Assembly: GCF_014202975.1 (NCBI RefSeq) | Contig: NZ_JACHHZ010000002.1 | Location: forward strand, 682,001-746,000 | From: Povalibacter uvarum | GTDB lineage: Bacteria > Pseudomonadota > Gammaproteobacteria > Steroidobacterales > Steroidobacteraceae | DNA length: 64,000 nt | Direction: 5' to 3' | Part shown: positions 31,092 to 54,905 of the stretch, in pieces | Position numbering within the stretch: position 1 is the stretch's first letter | Layout of the letters: each line of letters begins with the position of its first letter | The notes under the pieces: generated by a model | The model's input: only the letters and a program-made list of their open reading frames with translations | Databases searched by the model: none | Told to the model about the DNA's origin: nothing | Program-made: the position numbers and the translations under genes

Positions 31092-31121
31092 TTGACGAGG
31101 GATGGAGCCGCTCCCTACATT
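31092..31121 (+). promoter_or_regulatory. Probable sigma-70 promoter of the metE leader
   Basis: TTGACG (31092-31097) and TACATT (31116-31121) are separated by 18 bases. The inferred start near 31128 sits just before the cobalamin riboswitch begins, which supports the assignment. Confidence 0.6.
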
Positions 31122-31127
31122 CACGAC

Positions 31128-31325
31128 GCCAGCGGTGCCTGCTTTCGCGCAGGCTTGAAAGGGAATCCGGTGCGGTCTTTGACCTACTCCGGAGCTGCCC
31201 CGCAGCGGTAATCGGGAACGACCGGCGCCATCGCACTGGATCATGAGATCCGGGAAGCGGCGTCCAGTAGATCAACGATCCATTCGATCGTCCGCCCGTG
31301 AGTCCGAAGACCTGCCGCGGCCGTC
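31128..31325 (+). promoter_or_regulatory. Cobalamin (AdoCbl-type) riboswitch controlling metE
   Basis: The leader contains, in the right order, cggtgcctgctttcgcgcag, aaagggaatccggtgcgg, ctccggagctgccccgcagc followed by ggtaa, and finally gtgagtccgaagacctgcc. The last is the B12-box form of the conserved AGTCxGxAGACCTGCC. Bound cobalamin is expected to switch off the downstream B12-independent methionine synthase. About 225 bases then separate it from the metE start, where I see no clear terminator hairpin, so control may act on translation or via a structure I could not resolve. Confidence 0.92.
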
Positions 31326-31551
31326 ACTGTCGGAATCGACAGCGGCGCACGGCTGTCGGGCTCTCTCGGGCGGAGCTGGCGGAACGCATGCGACATCCAG
31401 TCGCTGCGCTCTCCCTGCATTTTCCTGTGAAAGACCGATCCTGCTCGCGGGAGCGGAAGGCCACGATGCGCGCGTCGCTGGCAAGGCTCTCCGGCGGCAT
31501 TGCGTCGTCGTGCCTTCACGTTCTCCGGGCGTTCTTTCCGGAGCAACGATC

Positions 31552-44111: not shown

Positions 44112-44986
44112 CGTTGTTCGACGTAGGCCGCAGGCAAATCGGATGATCGCGGACGCAGATCCGGTTCCCAGCCGAACTGACCCTCGCCGTACAAGGGCCG
44201 GCCTTTGCCGAGCGCCTGAAGTGCGATCGGTCGACCGGGCAGTTCGAACTGCTCCACGAGCTCGTTGACCGTGACTTCGTCGACGCGATGCCGCAGCTGC
44301 CGCTCGTCTCGAGCAGTCCAGGTGTCACTGAGGATCGCGCCGCGGGCTGTATGAACGACTTGTGATCGATCTCGGGCCTGCACATGAATGCGCTCACCGA
44401 GCGTCATCGGTCGACCAGCGAGCTCCCGCAATACCGGGCGGATACCGATCGCCACAGACGTCCCCGCATACGCGCGGCGGTTGAGGCTCAGGCTGTCGAG
44501 CCGCAGCAACCGCTGCAGTTCGCCGAGCAAGCCGTCGCCATAGGCGATCGCCGGCACGAACAGAACCCCGACATCGACCGGCGCGGGTTGGTCACTCGAC
44601 TGATGCTCGATGGGAGCGCCTTCGTCGTTGTGATCGAGCAGGCGACGACGTTGCAGATCACGCCACAACGTGTTCTCCGTGACACCTTCGTCGCGGAGTT
44701 GTTCCACTGCCGTCAGCCCTGCGAGCGGATTGCCCAGAGTGCGATCCCGAGCTTCGAGCACGATGTCGTCCTCGCTCTTGCGATTCGATGTGCCGTCGCT
44801 GCGCCAGACCGTTCGCTCCCACAACGCGTAGCGCGCGGTATCAAATGTCTTGTGCTTGATGTCGAGCTGCTTTCCGAGCATCGGGATAGCGACGATGAAC
44901 GGCGAGAGCGCGAGCAGAGACACGATGGTCTCCGCCATCGCATTCCCGCACTGAGTTCGCCAATGGCTGGCGCGGCTGCGTTTCAT
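44108..44986 (-). CDS. TadE-like pseudopilin or minor pilin
   Basis: The 292-residue product has an N-terminal signal CGNAMAETIVSLLALSPFIV: Gly then N-A-M-A-Glu with Glu at +5, the type IVb prepilin cleavage site, followed by one membrane helix. The large exported rest contains RSDGTSNRKSEDDIVLEARD and ARGAILSDTWTARDERQ. TadE-like proteins are pseudopilins of the Tad system. It overlaps both neighbouring genes by four bases. Confidence 0.72.
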   Translation of the reverse strand: MKRSRASHWRTQCGNAMAETIVSLLALSPFIVAIPMLGKQLDIKHKTFDTARYALWERTVWRSDGTSNRKSEDDIVLEARDRTLGNPLAGLTAVEQLRDEGVTENTLWRDLQRRRLLDHNDEGAPIEHQSSDQPAPVDVGVLFVPAIAYGDGLLGELQRLLRLDSLSLNRRAYAGTSVAIGIRPVLRELAGRPMTLGERIHVQARDRSQVVHTARGAILSDTWTARDERQLRHRVDEVTVNELVEQFELPGRPIALQALGKGRPLYGEGQFGWEPDLRPRSSDLPAAYVEQR

Positions 44987-46227
44987 AGCCCGATCCCGGA
45001 TTCGATCGGCACGAGTCGCGCATCCCAGAAGGGATTGAACAGGTTCGCATGCTCGCGTCGATTGGAACCCAGCGCTGCGAACGCGCTTCCCGTCGGACGG
45101 CGGAACGACACCTCCGCCATAGCAGCCACTGCGAGCGGTGACTCATTGGTGGCCAGTCCGAACTTGTCATGCGTGGCGACCCGCGACTGCTCCTTCGTCG
45201 CGAGCGCACCGATGCTCAGTACCGCGGCACTGGGGCGCCCCGCCACGTTGTAATACGACGGAACACCCTGGTAGTCCGAATCGAACTCGGAGGCGCGTGC
45301 TGTGCTGACTCGATCGCCGACACGCCTCCAGCTTCGCCACCCGAACACACCCAGGGTTCGATACTGCAGCTGATCGCGGGCTTGCCAGTCGGCGCCGTCT
45401 TCACTCTGTGATGTCGACGTGGAGCCCTGCTTGCGGATCTGGGCAGCGACGAGATTCTCCCGCCAGCCGCGCTCACCTGAAATCCAGCGGCGCAAGTCCG
45501 CGTTGGCTGCGAAACTCGTAGTGATGAGCTGGTTCACCGCGCCGCTGTCGTTGCTCGCTGTGTACCGCTCGACGAACGTCGGCACGTTGACGAGCTGCAT
45601 CAGCACTTGCGCTTCGATCACGCGGCGCAGCGCGTCCGGCATCGCGCCGATCGCATCGCGGTCATTGATCCTGACATCGGGGTCCCACCGGCGCGCCGTC
45701 TGTTCCATCAGGTCGTTGAGATTGTTCAATGCCAGCGAGGCCTGCACCTCGACCTGCGCCGCGCGAAAATGGGTGTTCCAGCCGTCTATCGCGGGCACGA
45801 GCACTTGCGCGCCCTGCTCGGTGATCTCGCGGACTTCCTCGGCGACCTCTTCCACTGTGCTGACGTACTGGCCGACGTAGGGGATGTAGCGGGTGATCCT
45901 GTCCACATGCTGGATCGACTCATGGATGTAGCGGATCCAGCTGACGTACGAGACGAGGTGTCCGACGGCAGCATGATTGGCCACCATCGCGCGATTCGTG
46001 TACGCCATGAAGTTGAGATGGCGCGCCGTCCAGACTGCGCCACTGTAAGCAGCGGCGTCCGCGGCGTTCGCGACCTGAGACTTCTCCGTCACCTTCTGAG
46101 CCGTGTTGTACATCAGCACGAGCACCGCGCTCGCGATCAGCACACCGAACAGGGCGACCGGTGCAATCTGGCCGAGCTGGGGATGTCGCTCACGAAATGA
46201 AGTGCCTGAGGTGCGCGGGTCTGCCAT
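44983..46227 (-). CDS. TadG-like pilus assembly protein (Tad_N-type)
   Basis: The 414-residue product starts with a short basic region and then GQIAPVALFGVLIASAVLVL and TEKSQVANAADAAAYSGAVW, the Tad_N pattern of TadG. The rest is exported and helical, with YVSWIRYIHESIQHVDRITR. TadG helps anchor or regulate pili. ATG 46227 has AGGAGA about seven bases upstream; the frame also opens at 46326 but those extra residues cover a terminator. It is separated from the pilin gene by that terminator. Confidence 0.85.
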   Translation of the reverse strand: MADPRTSGTSFRERHPQLGQIAPVALFGVLIASAVLVLMYNTAQKVTEKSQVANAADAAAYSGAVWTARHLNFMAYTNRAMVANHAAVGHLVSYVSWIRYIHESIQHVDRITRYIPYVGQYVSTVEEVAEEVREITEQGAQVLVPAIDGWNTHFRAAQVEVQASLALNNLNDLMEQTARRWDPDVRINDRDAIGAMPDALRRVIEAQVLMQLVNVPTFVERYTASNDSGAVNQLITTSFAANADLRRWISGERGWRENLVAAQIRKQGSTSTSQSEDGADWQARDQLQYRTLGVFGWRSWRRVGDRVSTARASEFDSDYQGVPSYYNVAGRPSAAVLSIGALATKEQSRVATHDKFGLATNESPLAVAAMAEVSFRRPTGSAFAALGSNRREHANLFNPFWDARLVPIESGIGL

Positions 46228-46253
46228 GAACTCTCCTGGCGCTGCGCTCTGCC

Positions 46254-46286
46254 GAAAAAAGCCCTCCCCGCTTTCAGGGAGGGAAT
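46254..46286 (-). terminator. Rho-independent terminator between pilin and assembly genes
   Basis: On the minus strand CCCTCCC-TGAAAGCG-GGGAGGG is followed at once by CTTTTTT. It lies just after the pilin stop and 27 bases before the TadG-like start. Partial read-through here would give far more pilin mRNA than assembly-gene mRNA. Confidence 0.85.
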
Positions 46287-46312
46287 CGGGGAAACAGCGC
46301 TGCGAGTCGTGC

Positions 46313-46612
46313 CTAGGGGTTGCCACCTCCGCCGCCAGAATTCGTCTGCTGGTTGTACGTTGCGAGACTGTCTGCCTGCGCGGCGCGGGTCTGGGCTGTC
46401 GTCGCCGAGGATTGCGCGTCCTGGATATCCTGCGAGCCCGATTGCCCCGACATTTCCATGCTCATGCCGGCCATCTGGTTCTGCAGCGTGTCGCCGAACG
46501 CGGCGAACAGACCGATGCCGGCGACGGCCACGAGCGCCGTGATGATGATGTACTCACTCATGCCCTGGCCTCGCTGGTGTACAGCGCAAGCCTCCCTGTC
46601 CTGCCGAATCAT
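46313..46612 (-). CDS. flp: Major Flp-type (type IVb) pilin
   Basis: The 99-residue product is a short basic leader followed by HQRG|QGMSEYIIITALVAVAG. Gly cleavage leaves Glu at +5 and Tyr at +6, the hallmark of Flp pilins. The mature part has a hydrophobic helix and an exceptionally long Gln/Ser/Ala-rich tail ending in five glycines (SGGGGGNP). ATG 46612 has AAGGAGG six bases upstream, an ideal ribosome site for an abundant protein. A terminator follows directly. Confidence 0.88.
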   Translation of the reverse strand: MIRQDREACAVHQRGQGMSEYIIITALVAVAGIGLFAAFGDTLQNQMAGMSMEMSGQSGSQDIQDAQSSATTAQTRAAQADSLATYNQQTNSGGGGGNP

Positions 46613-46641
46613 GATGTCCTCCTTGACCGTGGCGCGTTGCT

Positions 46642-46659
46642 CAACGGTGCCGACCGTTG
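46642..46659. promoter_or_regulatory. 18-bp palindrome upstream of the pilin gene
   Basis: CAACGGTGCCGACCGTTG has 7-base arms CAACGGT/ACCGTTG around four bases. It lies 30 bases before the pilin ATG, in its probable 5' region and near a divergent amidohydrolase gene, so it may be an operator or an mRNA hairpin. Confidence 0.45.
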
Positions 46660-46794
46660 TGAGGCAAGCGTAGGCCGCCCGCGCCGGGACTCGACGGCCA
46701 ATTTCTCTCCCGTTGATCCAGAAACGCATTCCGGTTGACGTCGCCCGTGCGGCATCGGTTATCGTCTCGCGATCCACTCTCCTGGAGCACAACA

Positions 46795-48090
46795 ATGAAA
46801 CCGATGAACCTCGTCGCAACGTTGCTCGCCGGCCTGGCGATCAGCTGCGTTGCGGGCGGAGCGGAAGAGCGTCCGATCGTTCTGAAGGCGAGTCATCTCT
46901 TCGACAGCAAGTCGGGCCGGCTGACCGATGGCGGTGTCGTCGTGATCCAGGGCGACCGCATCACCGCCATCGGTGGTGGCGCTACGCTTCCGGCGAATGC
47001 CCAGGTGATCGATCTCGGCAACGCGACGCTGCTGCCGGGCTTCATCGATGCGCACGTGCACCTCGGCAGCGAGCTGCAGAAGGATTTCTTCCGCGCGTTT
47101 CATACCAACATGTTTCGCTTTCCGGTCGAGCAGTCGCACTACGCAGCGCTGTATGCGAAGCGCACGCTCGATGCGGGCTTCACGACCGTGCGCAATCTCG
47201 GCGCATCCGATTTCGTCGACATCGGCCTGCGCAATGCGATCAATGCCGGTGTAACGCCCGGGCCGCGCATGATCACTGCCGCGCACTCGGTGGGTTCGAC
47301 TGCCGGGCATTGCGACAACAGCCCCTTTCCGCCGGATCTCATCGAGCCTTCGGGCCCGATCGACGGTGTCTGCAACGGCGCCGACGAATGCCGGGCCGCC
47401 GTTCGCTATCAGATGAAGTGGGGCGCCGACGTCATCAAGATCTGTGCGTCGGGCGGCGTGTTGTCGGAGGCCGATCCGGTCGACGTGCCGCAGCTCACGA
47501 CGGAAGAGCTCACCGCGATCATGTCCGAGGCGCACGCATGGAAGAAGAAGGTGGCCGCTCACAGCCACGGCGATGTCGCCGCGAAGCTGGCGATCGATGC
47601 CGGCGTCGACTCGATCGAGCATGCCAGCTTCCTGACCGAGCAGACGCTGCAGCTCATGAAGAGCAAGGGAACGTACCTGGTGCCCACCCGCCTCGCGGTC
47701 TATTGGGTGAACAAGGAAGCCGCGAACCTCCCGCCCGCGATCGCCGAAAAGGCACGGGCCGCGTACGCCGCGCATGAAAAGATGTTCCGCAGCGCACTAA
47801 AGATCGGGGTACCGATCGCGTTCGGTACCGACAGCGGCGTTTCTCCGCACGGCATGAATGCGAAGGAATTCGCATTGCTCACGGAAATCGGCATGACGCC
47901 GGCCGCGGCGCTGATCTCCGGTACCCGCGAATCCGCGAAGCTGCTCGGTGTCGACGCCGAAGTGGGCACACTCGAGACCGGCAAGTCCGCGGACATTGTC
48001 GCGGTTCCCGGCAACGTCCTCGAGAACATCGCGGCGACCGAAGCCCCGCTCTTCGTGATGAAGCGCGGCCAGATCGTCAAGCAACCCTGA
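46795..48090 (+). CDS. Exported amidohydrolase family metalloenzyme
   Basis: The 431-residue product has a signal peptide (NLVATLLAGLAISCVAGGAE), then an amidohydrolase with LLPGFIDAHVHLGSELQKDF (HxH metal ligands) and TTVRNLGASDF. It also has VIKICASGGVLSEADPVDVP (Lys), AAHSHGDVAAKLAIDAGVDS (His), IEHASFL (His) and FGTDSGVSPHGMNAKEF (Asp). The pattern matches imidazolonepropionase-like and Xaa-Pro dipeptidase-like members. The substrate is not clear. ATG 46795 has GGAG nine bases upstream. It is divergent from the Tad operon. Confidence 0.9.
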   Translation: MKPMNLVATLLAGLAISCVAGGAEERPIVLKASHLFDSKSGRLTDGGVVVIQGDRITAIGGGATLPANAQVIDLGNATLLPGFIDAHVHLGSELQKDFFRAFHTNMFRFPVEQSHYAALYAKRTLDAGFTTVRNLGASDFVDIGLRNAINAGVTPGPRMITAAHSVGSTAGHCDNSPFPPDLIEPSGPIDGVCNGADECRAAVRYQMKWGADVIKICASGGVLSEADPVDVPQLTTEELTAIMSEAHAWKKKVAAHSHGDVAAKLAIDAGVDSIEHASFLTEQTLQLMKSKGTYLVPTRLAVYWVNKEAANLPPAIAEKARAAYAAHEKMFRSALKIGVPIAFGTDSGVSPHGMNAKEFALLTEIGMTPAAALISGTRESAKLLGVDAEVGTLETGKSADIVAVPGNVLENIAATEAPLFVMKRGQIVKQP

Positions 48091-50348: not shown

Positions 50349-51458
50349 TCAGGCCTCCAGCGTCGCAGAAGCCCGATAGACCGTCGCGATCGATACCGAT
50401 GGCGTCCCCGCCGGCATCACCTTGGCCAGCACGGCTTCACGATGAACCTCATCGCGGGCGAGCCGCGTCAGCAGTGCAGAAGTTTCCGGACCGCTGAGAC
50501 CGCGCGTGCGAACGGTGGCGAAGCATCGGCCCGGCCGCAGCAGCGCTTCGTCGATATCGCTGACGTTCGGCAGGTTCGTGGTGAAGATGATCTTCCTTCC
50601 CTGCGCGCGCACCACGCCATCCGCGATCGCCAGGAAGCGGTGCAGATCATGGTTGCCGTTGTTTCGCGCCAGCAGCAGGTGATCGGCATCCTCGATGACG
50701 AACGCGTCGTGCGAGCCGGTGATGAAGTCGACGAAGATTTCGTCGTTCTCCAGCGCCCGCTTGTCTCCCGTGTACATCACGTTCGCGCTCTTGTGCCGGC
50801 GCTTCGACATCTCGCCAAGAATCGCACGCACGAGCCGCGTCTTGCCGGTGCCCGGCGGCCCGAGCAGGATCAGCACCGTCTCGCTTGCATCGAGATAGCG
50901 ACGAATGAAATTCTGCACCGGTTCCCGCAACGTCGGGTAGGCCTCATCGTAGATGGGCTCGACCGCGAGCTCATCGAACGAGGCGCTGCTCAGGCCCGAG
51001 CGGCTGTTCATGAAGTGCCAGTCGATCGTGAACATCTGGCTCGGTGAGTAGCGCTCACCGACGAGACGGAACAACGTATCACGCACTTCGTCCGCACGCG
51101 CCTTGCTCTCTGCCCAGATGCCGAAGGAGCAAGAGCAGTACTCCGCCTTGCGCCTGCCCTCCGCCTGCACGAAGACGCCCGGGCCGTCGAGCAACAGCGT
51201 TCCCTCGTCCATTCGCAACGCCGTCATACCCATGTGAAGCGCGAGATCGTCGAAGACGTCCTCGACCTTGCGACGGGTCGCGCATCGCACGGAGCGGCAT
51301 ATCGGGTAGCGCGCCGCAACGTTCTCGAGCGCACGAATCGCCCGCGTCTTGAGTACCGTATCCCCGAGATCGTAGAGCTCGTGGTGGAACGAGAGCCCCG
51401 CAGACAGAGAACGGCGGTCCTCCCGGCCGCACTCCGGATTCAGATTGTCGATGTCCAT
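50349..51458 (-). CDS. AAA family ATPase co-transcribed with rtcB
   Basis: The 369-residue product has an N-terminal domain of about 185 residues with no family match and a C-terminal AAA domain. The AAA domain has Walker A LGPPGTGKTRL, Walker B AFVIEDADHLL, sensor FTTNLPNVSDIDEALLRPGR with an arginine finger-like RPGRC. The ATPase begins seven bases after rtcB, so they are one transcript. It may remodel or regulate RtcB or its RNA substrate; that role is inferred. Classic rtcB partners (rtcA, rtcR, archease) are absent nearby. Confidence 0.87.
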   Translation of the reverse strand: MDIDNLNPECGREDRRSLSAGLSFHHELYDLGDTVLKTRAIRALENVAARYPICRSVRCATRRKVEDVFDDLALHMGMTALRMDEGTLLLDGPGVFVQAEGRRKAEYCSCSFGIWAESKARADEVRDTLFRLVGERYSPSQMFTIDWHFMNSRSGLSSASFDELAVEPIYDEAYPTLREPVQNFIRRYLDASETVLILLGPPGTGKTRLVRAILGEMSKRRHKSANVMYTGDKRALENDEIFVDFITGSHDAFVIEDADHLLLARNNGNHDLHRFLAIADGVVRAQGRKIIFTTNLPNVSDIDEALLRPGRCFATVRTRGLSGPETSALLTRLARDEVHREAVLAKVMPAGTPSVSIATVYRASATLEA

Positions 51459-51465
51459 GTTGTTA

Positions 51466-52674
51466 TCAGCCCTTGATGCAGATCACTTGCTTCAGCGTGT
51501 GAGCGACCTCGACCAGGTCGGTCTGGTTCGCCATCACCTCATCGATGTTCTTGTACGCCGCCGGGATCTCGTCCACGACGCCTCCGTCCTTGCGGCACTC
51601 CACCCCTTCGGTCTGCTTGGCCAGATCGAAGCGGTTGAAGCGTCGCTTCGCTTCCGTGCGACTCATGCGCCGGCCCGCTCCATGGGAACAGGAGCAGAAC
51701 GACTCGGCATTGCCTTTGCCGCGGACGATGTACGAGCGAGCGCCCATGCTGCCCGGGATGATGCCGAGCTGGCCGTCGCGCGCACTGATCGCGCCCTTGC
51801 GGGTGATGAACAGCTTCTCGCCGAAATGCTGTTCGATCGCCACGTAGTTGTGATGGCAGTTGATCGCCTCGCCGTCCGTCCTGAACGGCGGAAGATGCTT
51901 CGCCAGCGCGTCCAGCACGAGCTTCATCATCATCGTGCGATTGAGCAGCGCGTAGTCCTGCGCCCAATCGACGGCTTCGACGTAGTCGTCGAACAGATCC
52001 GACCCCTCGCTGAAGTACGAAAGATCGCGGTCCGGCAGGTTCACCTGGTGACGGCGCATGTCCTTGCGCGCGGCTTCGATGAAGTAGCGCCCGAAGACAT
52101 TGCCGATCCCTCGCGATCCCGAGTGCAGCATCACCCACACGCGCTGCGCCTCGTCGACACACAGTTCGATGAAGTGATTGCCGCCGCCCAGCGAGCCCAG
52201 CTGGCAGATCCACGTGCGCGCGAACTGGCGCTGCATCTTCATGATGCCGCCGTGCTTCTTCACGACGCTGTCGAGCCGATCACTCAGCGTGCGCGCCTGC
52301 CGCGCATGAGCGCTGCCGTGGACCTTGTCGGATTCGTGCTGATTGAATCCGACCGGTACCGCGCGCTCTATTTCACTGCGGATCTTCGCGAGATTGTCGG
52401 GAAGATCGGCGGCGGTGAGCGTCAGGCGCACGGCATTCATGCCGCAGCCGATGTCGACACCGACGGCCGCGGGAATAATGGCCTGCTTCGTTGCAATCAC
52501 GCTGCCCACGGTCGCGCCGATGCCGTGATGCACATCGGGCATCGCAGCGACATGGCCGAACACGATCGGCAGTTGCGCGACATTGATCAGTTGCTGCATG
52601 GCGTCGTGCTCGATGTCTTTCGTGAAGACTTTGACGGGCACCCGGCCTTTGTTGAGAGTCAGTTGTACTGGCAT
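51466..52674 (-). CDS. rtcB: RNA-splicing ligase RtcB
   Basis: The 402-residue GTP- and Mn-dependent ligase joins 2',3'-cyclic phosphate or 3'-phosphate RNA ends to 5'-OH ends. Key segments are visible: GHVAAMPDVHHGIGATVGSV, VGVDIGCGMNAVR with the metal-binding Cys, LGSLGGGNHFIEL, HSGSRGIGN, and the guanylylated His in CSHGAGRRMSRTEA. Length matches the E. coli protein (about 408). It is the first gene of a pair with an AAA ATPase. An unusual small-RNA-like unit lies just upstream. Confidence 0.96.
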   Translation of the reverse strand: MPVQLTLNKGRVPVKVFTKDIEHDAMQQLINVAQLPIVFGHVAAMPDVHHGIGATVGSVIATKQAIIPAAVGVDIGCGMNAVRLTLTAADLPDNLAKIRSEIERAVPVGFNQHESDKVHGSAHARQARTLSDRLDSVVKKHGGIMKMQRQFARTWICQLGSLGGGNHFIELCVDEAQRVWVMLHSGSRGIGNVFGRYFIEAARKDMRRHQVNLPDRDLSYFSEGSDLFDDYVEAVDWAQDYALLNRTMMMKLVLDALAKHLPPFRTDGEAINCHHNYVAIEQHFGEKLFITRKGAISARDGQLGIIPGSMGARSYIVRGKGNAESFCSCSHGAGRRMSRTEAKRRFNRFDLAKQTEGVECRKDGGVVDEIPAAYKNIDEVMANQTDLVEVAHTLKQVICIKG

Positions 52675-52695
52675 GACAGAAAAATAGCCTTCTTG

Positions 52696-52737
52696 CGGCC
52701 AGCTGCTAACGGCTAGTCGCTGGTTTGCTGGCCCGCC
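52696..52737. repeat. GGCCAGCTGCTAACGGCTAG-type intergenic repeat
   Basis: The sequence cggccagctgctaacggcta continues gtcgctggtttgctggcc, sharing words (GGCTAG, CCAGC, GCTGG) with 21461-21542 and 24628-24640. It lies between the terminator at 52742-52776 and rtcB. Confidence 0.5.
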
Positions 52738-52741
52738 AAAG

Positions 52742-52776
52742 ACAAAACCCCTGGCAGGTTTCCCCGCCAGGGGTTT
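52742..52776 (-). terminator. Rho-independent terminator ending the small RNA unit before rtcB
   Basis: On the minus strand AAACCCCTGGC-GGGGAAACCT-GCCAGGGGTTTTGTCTTT: an 11-bp perfect stem followed by a T-rich tail. It would end the transcript that starts near 52945 and lies about 70 bases upstream of the rtcB start. Confidence 0.8.
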
Positions 52777-52861
52777 CGTGGAGCCATTCTGTCGCCAGAA
52801 GCGGCTTGTACACCTGACTTGGGGAGCGGACGCGCTCGTCCCAAGTCATCTCGTGAGAACT

Positions 52862-52909
52862 TTACGGCGCGTTGTTCAACTTGGTTTCGAGATTGTGCGG
52901 TGCAGACAT
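52862..52909 (-). CDS. 15-residue peptide MSAPHNLETKLNNAP inside the small RNA unit
   Basis: ATG at 52909 is preceded by TTGGAG with six bases between GGAG and ATG, a good ribosome site. The frame is MSAPHNLETKLNNAP then TAA. It may be a leader or a functional small peptide. It is too short for composition tests, so the ribosome site and the surrounding promoter, hairpin and terminator are the only support. Confidence 0.4.
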   Translation of the reverse strand: MSAPHNLETKLNNAP

Positions 52910-52949
52910 TGTTGGCTCCAAGGCCGGGTTGAAGTATCCGGGGGCGCGC

Positions 52950-52977
52950 ATGTTACTCAGCTTCGCCGATGAGTCAA
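52950..52977 (-). promoter_or_regulatory. Probable sigma-70 promoter of the small RNA unit
   Basis: On the minus strand TTGACT (52977-52972) and TAACAT (52955-52950) are separated by 16 bases, with expected initiation near 52945. Confidence 0.5.
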
Positions 52978-53012
52978 CCGGTAATTGACGATAGTCGTCC
53001 GGCGAATCGCGT

Positions 53013-54905
53013 TCAGGCGGGAGCGCCGAGCCGCGGCGCAGCGTTGCTGTGCGCTGAAATCACGTTCAGCAACTCGCGAGACACGCGCTCGTCGATCTCC
53101 GCGGCATGAGAGAGCTGTACGGGATATCTCACGACCGCTTCCACGCCATCCGGCGAGAAGCGCAGCTGGACCTGCGGCTGTGGGTCACCGGTTTCGTTCG
53201 ACGAGGCGGCCTTCTGGATTTCCTGGCTCTGCCGCACGATGTCGTCACGGTAGTCGTTGAGCACGTCGTTCACTGCAGCCACCAGCTCATCCTTGATCAC
53301 CGCGTAGTCGGCGCCCGGCGGGAGACTCAACGTAACGTCGTGCCACGCGAGGTTCACGCCCGCGATCTGTTTGAACAGGCCGCCCGATGCCTGGAAGATC
53401 ACGGAATTCGCGAAAGCAACGACGCGGCCAGTCGGCGCTTGCAGCCCCTGACCGCCGAGCTCCATCAGATGCAGTCTCACCAGGCCCAGCTCGATGACTT
53501 CGCCGGTCACGCTACCGATCTGCACTCGATCACCGACGCGAATGCCGTACTTGCCGATGAGGAAGAAGTAGCCCACGACCGACACGAGCACGCTCTGCAT
53601 GGCCACAGCCAGACCGGCCGTGATCAGGCCCGCGAAGGTTGCGAGCGAACCGAGCTCCGTCGCGAACGTCGATGCGGCGATGGCGACGACGAGGCACCAG
53701 ATGACGATTCGTCTCAGCAGCAGGAAGCGTGAGCGCCGACGTGCATCGTGTACGTACCGGAAGACGGCGCGCTGCCACAGCTCGGCGGCACCGAACACGA
53801 TCGCAAGCAACGCGGCGAAGAACAGAACTCGCATGCCGAGCGCTTTCAGTGCTTCGTAGTACTGGCGCTCCGTCGCGTCGCGCCAGCTCTTGAGGTTGTG
53901 GCGATACTGATCCAGAAGCACGCCGGCGCGGCTCAACGGGGTCAGCATCGACGAGGTCTGCTTGAACAGCCACGCGAGCGTGTCGTACTGATCGCGCATG
54001 GTCTTCAGGGTTGCGCTGTCGGTGTTGTCGGATTGCGCACCGAGCGCGTCGCCGCGTGCCGTCAAAGCTTTCAACTGCTCGAGGGGCGGGTTGCGGATCT
54101 GGGTGAACACTTCCTGCAGGTCCGCGGTGCGCTGATCGATCGCATCGATCGTTCGCATCTTTCCGGAAAGGCGGAAGACCGCAGCGGTCAGGTCCCAGAT
54201 TCCGAACTGGCTGAACGACAGTGTTCCCGGCGTCGGAGTCGGCGCACTGGCCGCGGCAGCCGTCGCTGCGGCGGGCGTCGCGGCGCTCATGGAAGGAATC
54301 GAAGCGGCAATGGCGTCGATATGGGCCTTGAGCGTGTTCGCGCCAAACCCGCCGGCATCATTCTCGTGCTCGAACTGTTCCATGCTCGAGAGATAGTTGC
54401 GTCGCGCATTGAGCAGATCGAGTTCACGCTGGAGCACCGACACGCGGGTCGATGCGTTCTCTCTGTCATCGGCGGATGCGAGTTGACGCTTGGCTGCGTC
54501 CAGTTCGGCCTGCACCGACTGACGCTGCTCATCCAGGCGCCGCTGAATGCGGGCCAATGTCTGTGATCCCGAGTCCGTGTTCTGCTGCGCCTTGGCGCCC
54601 TCTTCGCTGCTGATGAGTTCGGCGTTCGCGCGCGCGATCTCGAAGGCGAGCGTCATGACTTTGTCCGCCGTCTGGCGATTGGCGTAGAGGATCAACAGGT
54701 CACTCGGCTGTGTCGACGCCTGCTGCTGCATGCCGAGCGTGCGATACCAGTCGACCGTTTCATCGAGCAGCTGGACGACCTGTTCGATCGTCATCACCGT
54801 CCGCGAATCCGCTGGCGCAGGCGGAGTTGGTGCCGTTTCTTCGGCAGCATGAACGCCGAGCGTCAGCAGCGCGATGGCGACGAGCAGTAACGGTTTTGCG
54901 GACAT
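53013..54905 (-). CDS. MscS-type mechanosensitive ion channel family protein
   Basis: The 630-residue product has a signal peptide (LLLVAIALLTLGVHA), a long periplasmic helical region with coiled coil (RIQRRLDEQRQSVQAELDAA), then membrane segments and the MscS core. The core has SLATFAGLITAGLAVAMQSV (pore helix) and YFFLIGKYGIRVGDRVQIGS, VTGEVIELGLVRLHLMELGG. A beta/alpha C-terminal domain follows. It releases solutes on hypo-osmotic shock or senses tension. It is larger than plain MscS (286 residues) and closer to the MscK/YbdG-like type. Confidence 0.9.
   Translation of the reverse strand: MSAKPLLLVAIALLTLGVHAAEETAPTPPAPADSRTVMTIEQVVQLLDETVDWYRTLGMQQQASTQPSDLLILYANRQTADKVMTLAFEIARANAELISSEEGAKAQQNTDSGSQTLARIQRRLDEQRQSVQAELDAAKRQLASADDRENASTRVSVLQRELDLLNARRNYLSSMEQFEHENDAGGFGANTLKAHIDAIAASIPSMSAATPAAATAAAASAPTPTPGTLSFSQFGIWDLTAAVFRLSGKMRTIDAIDQRTADLQEVFTQIRNPPLEQLKALTARGDALGAQSDNTDSATLKTMRDQYDTLAWLFKQTSSMLTPLSRAGVLLDQYRHNLKSWRDATERQYYEALKALGMRVLFFAALLAIVFGAAELWQRAVFRYVHDARRRSRFLLLRRIVIWCLVVAIAASTFATELGSLATFAGLITAGLAVAMQSVLVSVVGYFFLIGKYGIRVGDRVQIGSVTGEVIELGLVRLHLMELGGQGLQAPTGRVVAFANSVIFQASGGLFKQIAGVNLAWHDVTLSLPPGADYAVIKDELVAAVNDVLNDYRDDIVRQSQEIQKAASSNETGDPQPQVQLRFSPDGVEAVVRYPVQLSHAAEIDERVSRELLNVISAHSNAAPRLGAPA

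Follow-up and report, generated by a model that had tools for sequence, protein, structure and literature searches.

Induction of genes of the RtcB family has been described, in the extracts of the published reports drawn on here, for RtcR (PMC7790460) and for armZ (PMC12057347, PMC13041342). According to these extracts, the RtcR route to the RNA ligase RtcB senses broken transfer RNA (tRNA), and genes for non-coding RNA are known in rtc operons (PMC7790460). The armZ gene (PA5471) of Pseudomonas aeruginosa is RtcB-like, and its leader peptide, PA5471.1, has been proposed to keep transcription attenuated as long as ribosomes are unimpaired; armZ is induced, via leader codons 3 and 4, when the tRNA nucleotidyltransferase Cca is lost (PMC12057347, PMC13041342). 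A survey of jumbo phages, again in extract, has reported that they carry orthologs of BCS1 and, separately, that some of them carry RtcB (PMC7824862). Here we describe a locus of Povalibacter uvarum (family Steroidobacteraceae), contained in a stretch of 64,000 nucleotides (the window), in which a structured RNA of about 200 nucleotides (nt) precedes rtcB and a gene for a BCS1-like AAA ATPase. The RNA is probably a cis-acting 5' leader of the rtcB-ATPase operon that acts as a transcription attenuator. No description of this operon was found in the open-licence literature searched.

The probable leader RNA and its copies in the genus

The locus lies on the minus strand of a 6.3 Mb genome in the order mscS-like gene, RNA unit, rtcB and ATPase gene, with seven bases between the last two (Table 1). 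An earlier note on this DNA, made from the sequence alone, had pointed to a promoter, a 15-codon open reading frame (ORF) with a ribosome site, a long hairpin and a strong terminator upstream of rtcB, and each of these was located. The note had also called the unit self-contained; its parts are real, and it lies on the same strand as rtcB and directly upstream, so that it is self-contained in appearance only. A scan of positions 52600-53100 gave a single promoter-like site, where 0.1 was expected, and this site would drive the leader and presumably the whole rtcB-ATPase operon. Promoter, short ORF, intrinsic terminator and gene, with no second promoter found, make up the predicted anatomy of a ribosome-mediated attenuator. 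The pattern scan of the window for terminators missed the terminator of the RNA, its one minus-strand match being a weak 5-pair stem at 52701-52685 (0.6 expected); terminators of the same type were called in relatives with a separate terminator caller.

Copies of the RNA were found 14 times, in 11 of the 14 genomes of the genus, and were not found in the remaining three (G005, G006, G009) by DNA search and covariance model. When 60 relatives were searched at the DNA level, 12 genomes matched, of which 10 belong to the genus; the matches in the two genomes of other genera (G019, G033) were only 23-28 bases long and were dropped. A covariance model built from 13 copies added the copy of G013 and, across the 217 genomes of the family, scored above 90 bits only in the 11 genomes of the genus. 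Forty of the 217 passed E<=0.01 (E, expectation value), and the matches outside the genus, which reached at most 36 bits, were treated as terminator look-alikes, except that of G118, a weak match that sits directly before the ATPase gene of that genome.

The positions of the copies carry the argument for a leader. In four genomes (G004, G007, G012, G013) the RNA is an orphan, with no rtcB or ATPase gene downstream; it has mnmE/SprT on one side and a Flp-pilin/TadG pair on the other, with the pilin ATG 157-235 nt downstream, and RNA, rtcB and ATPase gene of the window (genome G000) occupy this same chromosomal neighbourhood. The sister of the window genome, G002 (support 95/94 in an mnmE tree of 12 genomes), has kept the RNA, and neither rtcB nor the ATPase was found in it. 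Five genomes of one clade (G001, G003, G008, G010, G011; support 100/99) have RNA and rtcB together at another locus and, by BLAST, no RNA in the old neighbourhood. In three of the five (G001, G003, G011) the ATPase gene occupies a third locus, directly preceded by an RNA copy of its own. A tree of the 14 RNAs, which has no support values, sets the ATPase-linked copies apart from the rtcB-linked ones, and the latter group with the window copy. So, on comparison of these positions, homologous leaders appear to accompany rtcB and the ATPase gene through relocation. Because the two genes at separate loci each have a copy of the RNA directly upstream, the RNA is read as acting in cis, and it is in this form that the suggestion of a regulatory RNA in the earlier note is borne out. 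The gaps are short: in the eight copies measured, terminator stem and start codon are 25, 25, 41, 73 and 73 nt apart at rtcB and 36, 43 and 44 nt apart at the ATPase gene. A gap of 25 nt is room for a ribosome site and leaves none for a promoter. At loci L117 and L116, between RNA and rtcB, there are three tandem terminator copies in G010 and an apparently duplicated terminator in G008.

Flp-pilin-like and TadG-like genes lie at 44983-46819 (minus strand) of the window. TadG and the RNA occur in one and the same set of 11 genomes of the genus, including those in which the RNA is now at another place.

The structure of the RNA is conserved as well. The 209-nt RNA folds at -92.9 kcal/mol, compared with -65.1 +/- 4.8 kcal/mol for 200 shuffles, none of which was as low. 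Of the pair cells in 13 aligned copies, 97.3% are standard pairs. Five pairs are changed on both sides, a number reached by 9 of 500 shuffles, and the two-sided changed cells number 14 against 5.0 in shuffles (0 of 500 reach this) and at most 3 in slid controls. Conservation and covariation of the RNA, proposed in the earlier note as a check, were both found. At the level of sequence, TTGAC is invariant across 11 aligned copies and a GAGTA..ATGCGCG block is nearly so. The search of the window RNA gave no Rfam family at gathering score, and permissive matches (P15 and others) in three loci were rejected as far below that score. The single gathering-level Rfam match of the window is a cobalamin riboswitch at 31116-31333 on the plus strand (114.9 bits).

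Table 1. Features of the rtcB-ATPase locus, in window coordinates and in the order of the minus strand
Feature	Position	Strand	Basis
mscS-like gene	54905-53013	-	
Sigma70-like promoter, TTGACT-16-TAACAT	52977-52950	-	Promoter scan
Structured leader RNA, about 200 nt	52944-52742	-	Fold z -5.8; DNA homologs; covariance model
Helix P0, 5' arm (Shine-Dalgarno region), pairs with 52786-52781	52918-52913	-	6/6 pairs; support soft, best 6-mer pair picked per copy by script
Upstream ORF, 15 codons, MSAPHNLETKLNNAP, Shine-Dalgarno-like GGAG	52909-52862	-	Read from sequence
Helix P1, 5' arm within upstream ORF, pairs with 52814-52809	52904-52899	-	All cells (100%) paired across the 13 aligned copies; changes on both sides in one pair
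Hairpin P3 (GACUUG...CAAGUC)	52847-52816	-	Cells paired in aligned copies: outer helix 98.7%, inner helix 95.4%
Helix P1, 3' arm	52814-52809	-	Aligned copies
Helix P0, 3' arm, directly before terminator	52786-52781	-	Also in minimum-energy fold
Intrinsic terminator AAACCCCUGGC...GCCAGGGGUUUU	about 52776-52742	-	Sequence and minimum-energy fold; 97.4% of cells paired across 13 copies; two pairs are changed on both sides
rtcB, RNA ligase, 402 amino acids	52674-51466	-	Pfam PF01139, E 3.8e-132
BCS1-like AAA ATPase, 369 amino acids	51458-50349	-	Pfam AAA; AlphaFold2 model

The leader ORF with its ATG is intact in all nine copies before rtcB or the ATPase gene and in one of the five others (Fisher P 0.005, not corrected for kinship). 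The ATG is missing in G004, G007 and G013, and the ORF of G012 is frameshifted. Alternative starts in the same region soften this contrast between linked and orphan copies: G013 has a TTG ORF of 16 codons, G007 an internal ATG with 10 codons (MNSNNAHIGL) and G004 an internal ATG with 6 codons, and the ORFs of G007 and G013 carry an NNA motif resembling that of the window ORF. Differences at codon positions 1, 2 and 3 number 34, 22 and 62 among six rtcB-type copies (G002 included) and 30, 20 and 40 among the g10 leaders, a third-position excess that is absent in g18-type leaders (91, 76, 69) and in the three ATPase-type copies of the genus (2, 3, 2). Compared with ten window proteins, ten leader peptides contain 12 Cys (2.2 expected), 17 Asn (5.8), 18 Pro (7.9) and 12 His (5.4). 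Against random codons of the base composition of the leaders, nine peptides have 26 Asn+His where 9.0 are expected, and Cys+Trp are not enriched (12 vs 7.8, P 0.09). This composition test was post hoc, with one peptide per group and an enrichment that differs by clade, and is a lead only.

Proposed attenuation and its alternatives

The proposed mechanism is as follows. RNA polymerase would start at the single strong promoter and would by default stop at the terminator before rtcB, giving an RNA of about 200 nt. A ribosome on the 15-codon leader ORF would set the fold of the RNA, and where translation of the ORF fails or stalls, through translation inhibitors or damaged or missing tRNA, termination would be relieved. 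RtcB and the BCS1-like AAA motor would then be made, cut RNA would be repaired, and damaged complexes might be remodelled by the ATPase. By analogy with described systems, the signal would be failed translation, whether from translation stress or from tRNA damage.

Leaders of similar design occur before ATPase genes of other genera. The pattern TTGACA-16-TAnnnT was found within 420 nt upstream in 19 of 29 ATPase loci examined, a set that includes two loci with no usable upstream sequence (L182, L189) and the window ATPase behind rtcB (L001). Sixteen of these promoter-bearing loci lie outside the genus; nine also have a called terminator, as do 35 of 540 shuffled sequences (P 1.5e-7), and in 12 there is a short ORF of 12-40 codons, which begins with GTG in three cases. 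In G021 the terminator stem contains the ribosome site of the ATPase gene. A locus from another family (L197, G716), opened after the pattern was formed, has a 15- or 16-codon ORF, a hairpin (GGCTCGAAGC/GCTTTGAGCC) and a terminator of the CCCCTGG type; it has no match to the promoter pattern, and a weaker site was read by eye. The eight aligned leaders of the second type point in the same direction. In seven of them a segment B pairs 10/10 with a downstream segment A' and 7-10/10 with an upstream segment A just behind the stop codon of the ORF; the A:B and B:A' hairpins are mutually exclusive and similar in energy (-11 to -20 and -16 to -18 kcal/mol), and the leader of G064 is the one without this region. 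Mutually exclusive hairpins behind an ORF, counted here without a chance control, have the look of attenuator anatomy. Among rtcB genes, the more distant one of G233 (62%) is preceded by a leader ORF of 43 codons with repeated hairpin arms behind it. The 283 nt available at the rtcB of G169 show a nearby promoter-like site and no leader, and the other rtcB genes of the 60% clade have no such leader in their upstream DNA, by eye. A second subgroup of ATPase loci (L187, L188, L192) has a called hairpin without the TTGACA-16-TAnnnT promoter. In place of the leader these three have a palindrome, CCGCGACA..ATATGTCGCGG, 30-65 nt before the ATPase gene, which is perhaps an operator.

Several results weigh against attenuation. 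The fold is retained in the four orphan copies upstream of the pilin gene, from which the usual ATG ORF is missing; these copies may function otherwise, either in trans or as a leader for pilin. When 16 leaders were folded by ribosome state, with no chance control, the terminator arm changed clearly in five, slightly in two (G181 and the ATPase copy of G003) and hardly in nine, and this folding demonstrated no antiterminator, the window leader included. A ribosome at the stop codon frees the terminator arm in G182 (0.74 to 0.39) and G021 (0.62 to 0.28), a ribosome inside the ORF sequesters it in G064 (0.19 to 0.66) and in the rtcB copy of G011 (0.03 to 0.62), and in the window leader the arm becomes sequestered (0.09 to 0.48) only with the ribosome at codons 2-3. 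Four ATPase loci (L170, L177, L179, L180) have the promoter and neither a called terminator nor a clear leader ORF ending before the gene. The 147-nt stretch of the G233 leader that holds the ORF and the first hairpin arm folds no better than shuffles (z -0.4).

The orphan copies also bear on a different explanation, in which the RNA, with a promoter and a terminator to itself, is an independent small RNA acting in trans, and rtcB and the ATPase gene merely lie behind it or are expressed on read-through. They keep promoter, P1, P3 and terminator with neither gene downstream, just as G002 keeps the RNA though its rtcB was not found. We nevertheless regard a trans-acting RNA as unlikely, given the gaps of 25 nt to the start codon, the separate copies before rtcB and the ATPase gene in the same genomes and the like design before ATPases of other genera; the orphan copies, moreover, may serve the pilin gene behind them, and those of G007 and G013 keep the alternative starts described above.

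RtcB, the ATPase and their association

The RtcB domain of the window protein covers profile positions 1-426 of 426 in PF01139. On alignment with the solved RtcB PH1602, the Cys/His motifs line up (DIGCG/DINCG, GNHF, HSGSRG/HTGSRG, HN, HGAGR); we take these Cys and His to be the active-site residues, and the protein is accordingly predicted to be an RNA ligase. The earlier note had stated that neither archease nor RtcA is present, and profile searches of the genome agree: PF01951 (archease) and PF01137 (RtcA) gave 0 matches. Among 14 control genomes, the same searches gave matches in 8 (6 of them over the cut-off) and in 6 (5 of them over the cut-off), respectively. The genome contains a second rtcB, 60% identical (L079, G000:C6:5308-6468), which sits among 21 predicted tRNA genes spanning 4161 nt, an arrangement that resembles a phage or mobile tRNA array. 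Two rtcB genes of this 60% clade (L077 in G011, L066 in G032) have, some 300 nt upstream, a tRNA-like 3' half followed by a tRNA-like 5' half, as in a permuted tRNA gene; this was read by eye, and ARAGORN finds no tRNA at these sites.

Pfam AAA spans residues 196-314 of the ATPase. Among the best 25 of 34 Pfam matches listed, none starts before residue 170, in keeping with the N-terminal domain of about 185 residues that had been noted as unrecognised. No membrane segment is evident by eye in the N-terminus. The AlphaFold2 model has a mean predicted local distance difference test (pLDDT) of 78, and the Foldseek matches at ranks 1-11 are all Bcs1 (E 2.6e-14 to 9.4e-12, 346-404 columns), with template modelling scores (TM-scores) of only 0.36-0.45. 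By sequence the relationship to BCS1 is not recognisable, and the nearest solved sequences are AFG2/Cdc48, in the AAA part only. Since the TM-scores are low and AFG2/Cdc48 are nearest by sequence, kinship of the N-terminal domain with BCS1 is suggested by the model, not proven. Relatives of the ATPase are present in phages: 147 of 50,697 records match at E<=1e-5, and 8 cover at least 80% of the query. The phage relatives match over 79-85% of the ATPase at 26-29% identity, that of phiKZ over residues 45-334 at 29%. Among viral contigs one locus encodes a relative, with no rtcB match in its 8.8 kb, and plasmids gave two distant matches. In bacteria, the ATPase was found in 24 of 217 genomes of the family, in 18 of 396 drawn from the order (one outside the family) and in 3 of 369 drawn from the class, own genome included.

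The ATPase and this RtcB subfamily, present in 24 and 17 of the 217 family genomes, co-occur in 8 where about 1.9 would be expected (Fisher P 9e-5, not corrected for kinship). In two genera their genes are direct neighbours, and the order is reversed between them: rtcB-ATPase in the window, ATPase-rtcB in G225. Some genomes of the set are incomplete; within it, 14 of the 24 genomes with the ATPase are without RtcB at E<=1e-20, and 9 of the 17 with this RtcB subfamily are without an ATPase match, among them G008 and G010, which have RNA and rtcB. Since each often occurs without the other, rtcB and the ATPase look, in gene content, like regulon partners rather than an obligate complex. As for the pair as the earlier note saw it, the linkage holds, with adjacency in two genera, co-occurrence above chance and homologous leaders where the genes are unlinked in three genomes; the part that does not hold is the dedication of the ATPase, which, to judge from the genomes without RtcB, is not dedicated to this ligase.

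The earlier note had further supposed that the ATPase replaces archease, and the strongest form of this idea makes it an obligate activator of this RtcB. That no archease was found in the genome speaks for such a role, as do the adjacency in opposite orders and the co-occurrence. The many genomes with one protein and not the other, and the ATPase relatives in phages such as phiKZ, make it improbable, and replacement is unsupported as a general rule. More doubtful still is a role of the RNA as substrate, guide or scaffold of RtcB or of the ATPase, like that of Y RNA for Ro60 in rsr-yrlBA-rtcBA operons. Physical linkage, the strong structure and the non-coding RNA genes of rtc operons (PMC7790460, in extract) fit this role, the first two parts of which the earlier note had also raised. 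The RNA, however, occurs in genomes without RtcB at E<=1e-20 (G002, G004 and G007, the last 75% complete), similar leaders precede ATPase genes in genomes without detected RtcB, and no Rfam family was matched at gathering score; on these occurrences, a substrate, guide or Y-RNA-like scaffold of RtcB was rejected. That the RNA is a chance product, an ordinary terminator of the upstream mscS-like gene joined to a meaningless short ORF, is hardly credible: a terminator is expected somewhere behind mscS and short ORFs are common, but there are 14 conserved copies, mscS was seen in front of two of them only (G000 and G002), and the pair counts and the relocation with rtcB and the ATPase gene speak against it.

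Significance and comparison with known systems

An attenuating leader remains the reading that we favour. If it is correct, an attenuator common to rtcB and a BCS1-like ATPase gene, and moving with either, would be another coupling of translation failure to RNA repair. It would give a physiological context for a bacterial BCS1-like protein, with a signal directly testable by reporter, and in a soil bacterium an RNA-repair enzyme and its partner motor protein would be produced chiefly when translation is under stress. A wider proposal, which we offer as speculation that may well prove wrong, is that of an RtcR-independent translation-stress regulon in Steroidobacteraceae and one neighbouring family. 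Its attenuator would read tRNA integrity on a leader ORF rich in single-tRNA codons (Asn, His, Cys) and would induce an RNA ligase along with a BCS1-like AAA motor of phage kinship, and the two would act together on damaged translation complexes; copies left without the genes would persist as RNA with another role.

Several described systems share parts of this design. The BCS1-like AAA proteins of jumbo phages and mitochondria resemble the window ATPase in that its best solved folds are Bcs1 and that it has phage relatives; the window protein differs in having no Pfam match in its N-domain and in being bacterial, behind an attenuator-like leader and sometimes with rtcB. In the rtcB-archease operons (PMC3973293, in extract) a second gene likewise stands directly beside rtcB, whereas here no archease was found and rtcB is paired with the gene of an AAA ATPase, a protein also present in genomes without detected RtcB. 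The RtcR-controlled rtcBA and rsr-yrlBA-rtcBA operons, in the extract, share induction of RtcB by damaged translation components, namely tRNA fragments (PMC7790460). The window genome, by contrast, is without detected RtcA, its operon has a sigma70-like promoter and a leader, and an mscS-like gene lies upstream; neither Ro60 nor Y RNA was seen beside the window operon, RtcR and Ro60 not having been searched genome-wide.

The closest likeness is to armZ. There too, as the extracts describe it, an RtcB-like gene is preceded by a constitutive promoter, leader ORF and terminator, and its expression is raised by stalled ribosomes and by a tRNA defect, that of the cca mutant (PMC12057347, PMC13041342). 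ArmZ is described in them as an anti-repressor of MexZ, whereas the window operon encodes an RtcB with the active-site residues together with a BCS1-like ATPase. The leader described here also stands on two unlinked genes and is likened to PA5471.1 by design, not by leader sequence. With these differences, the armZ leader is the nearest precedent for the way in which the window leader may work.

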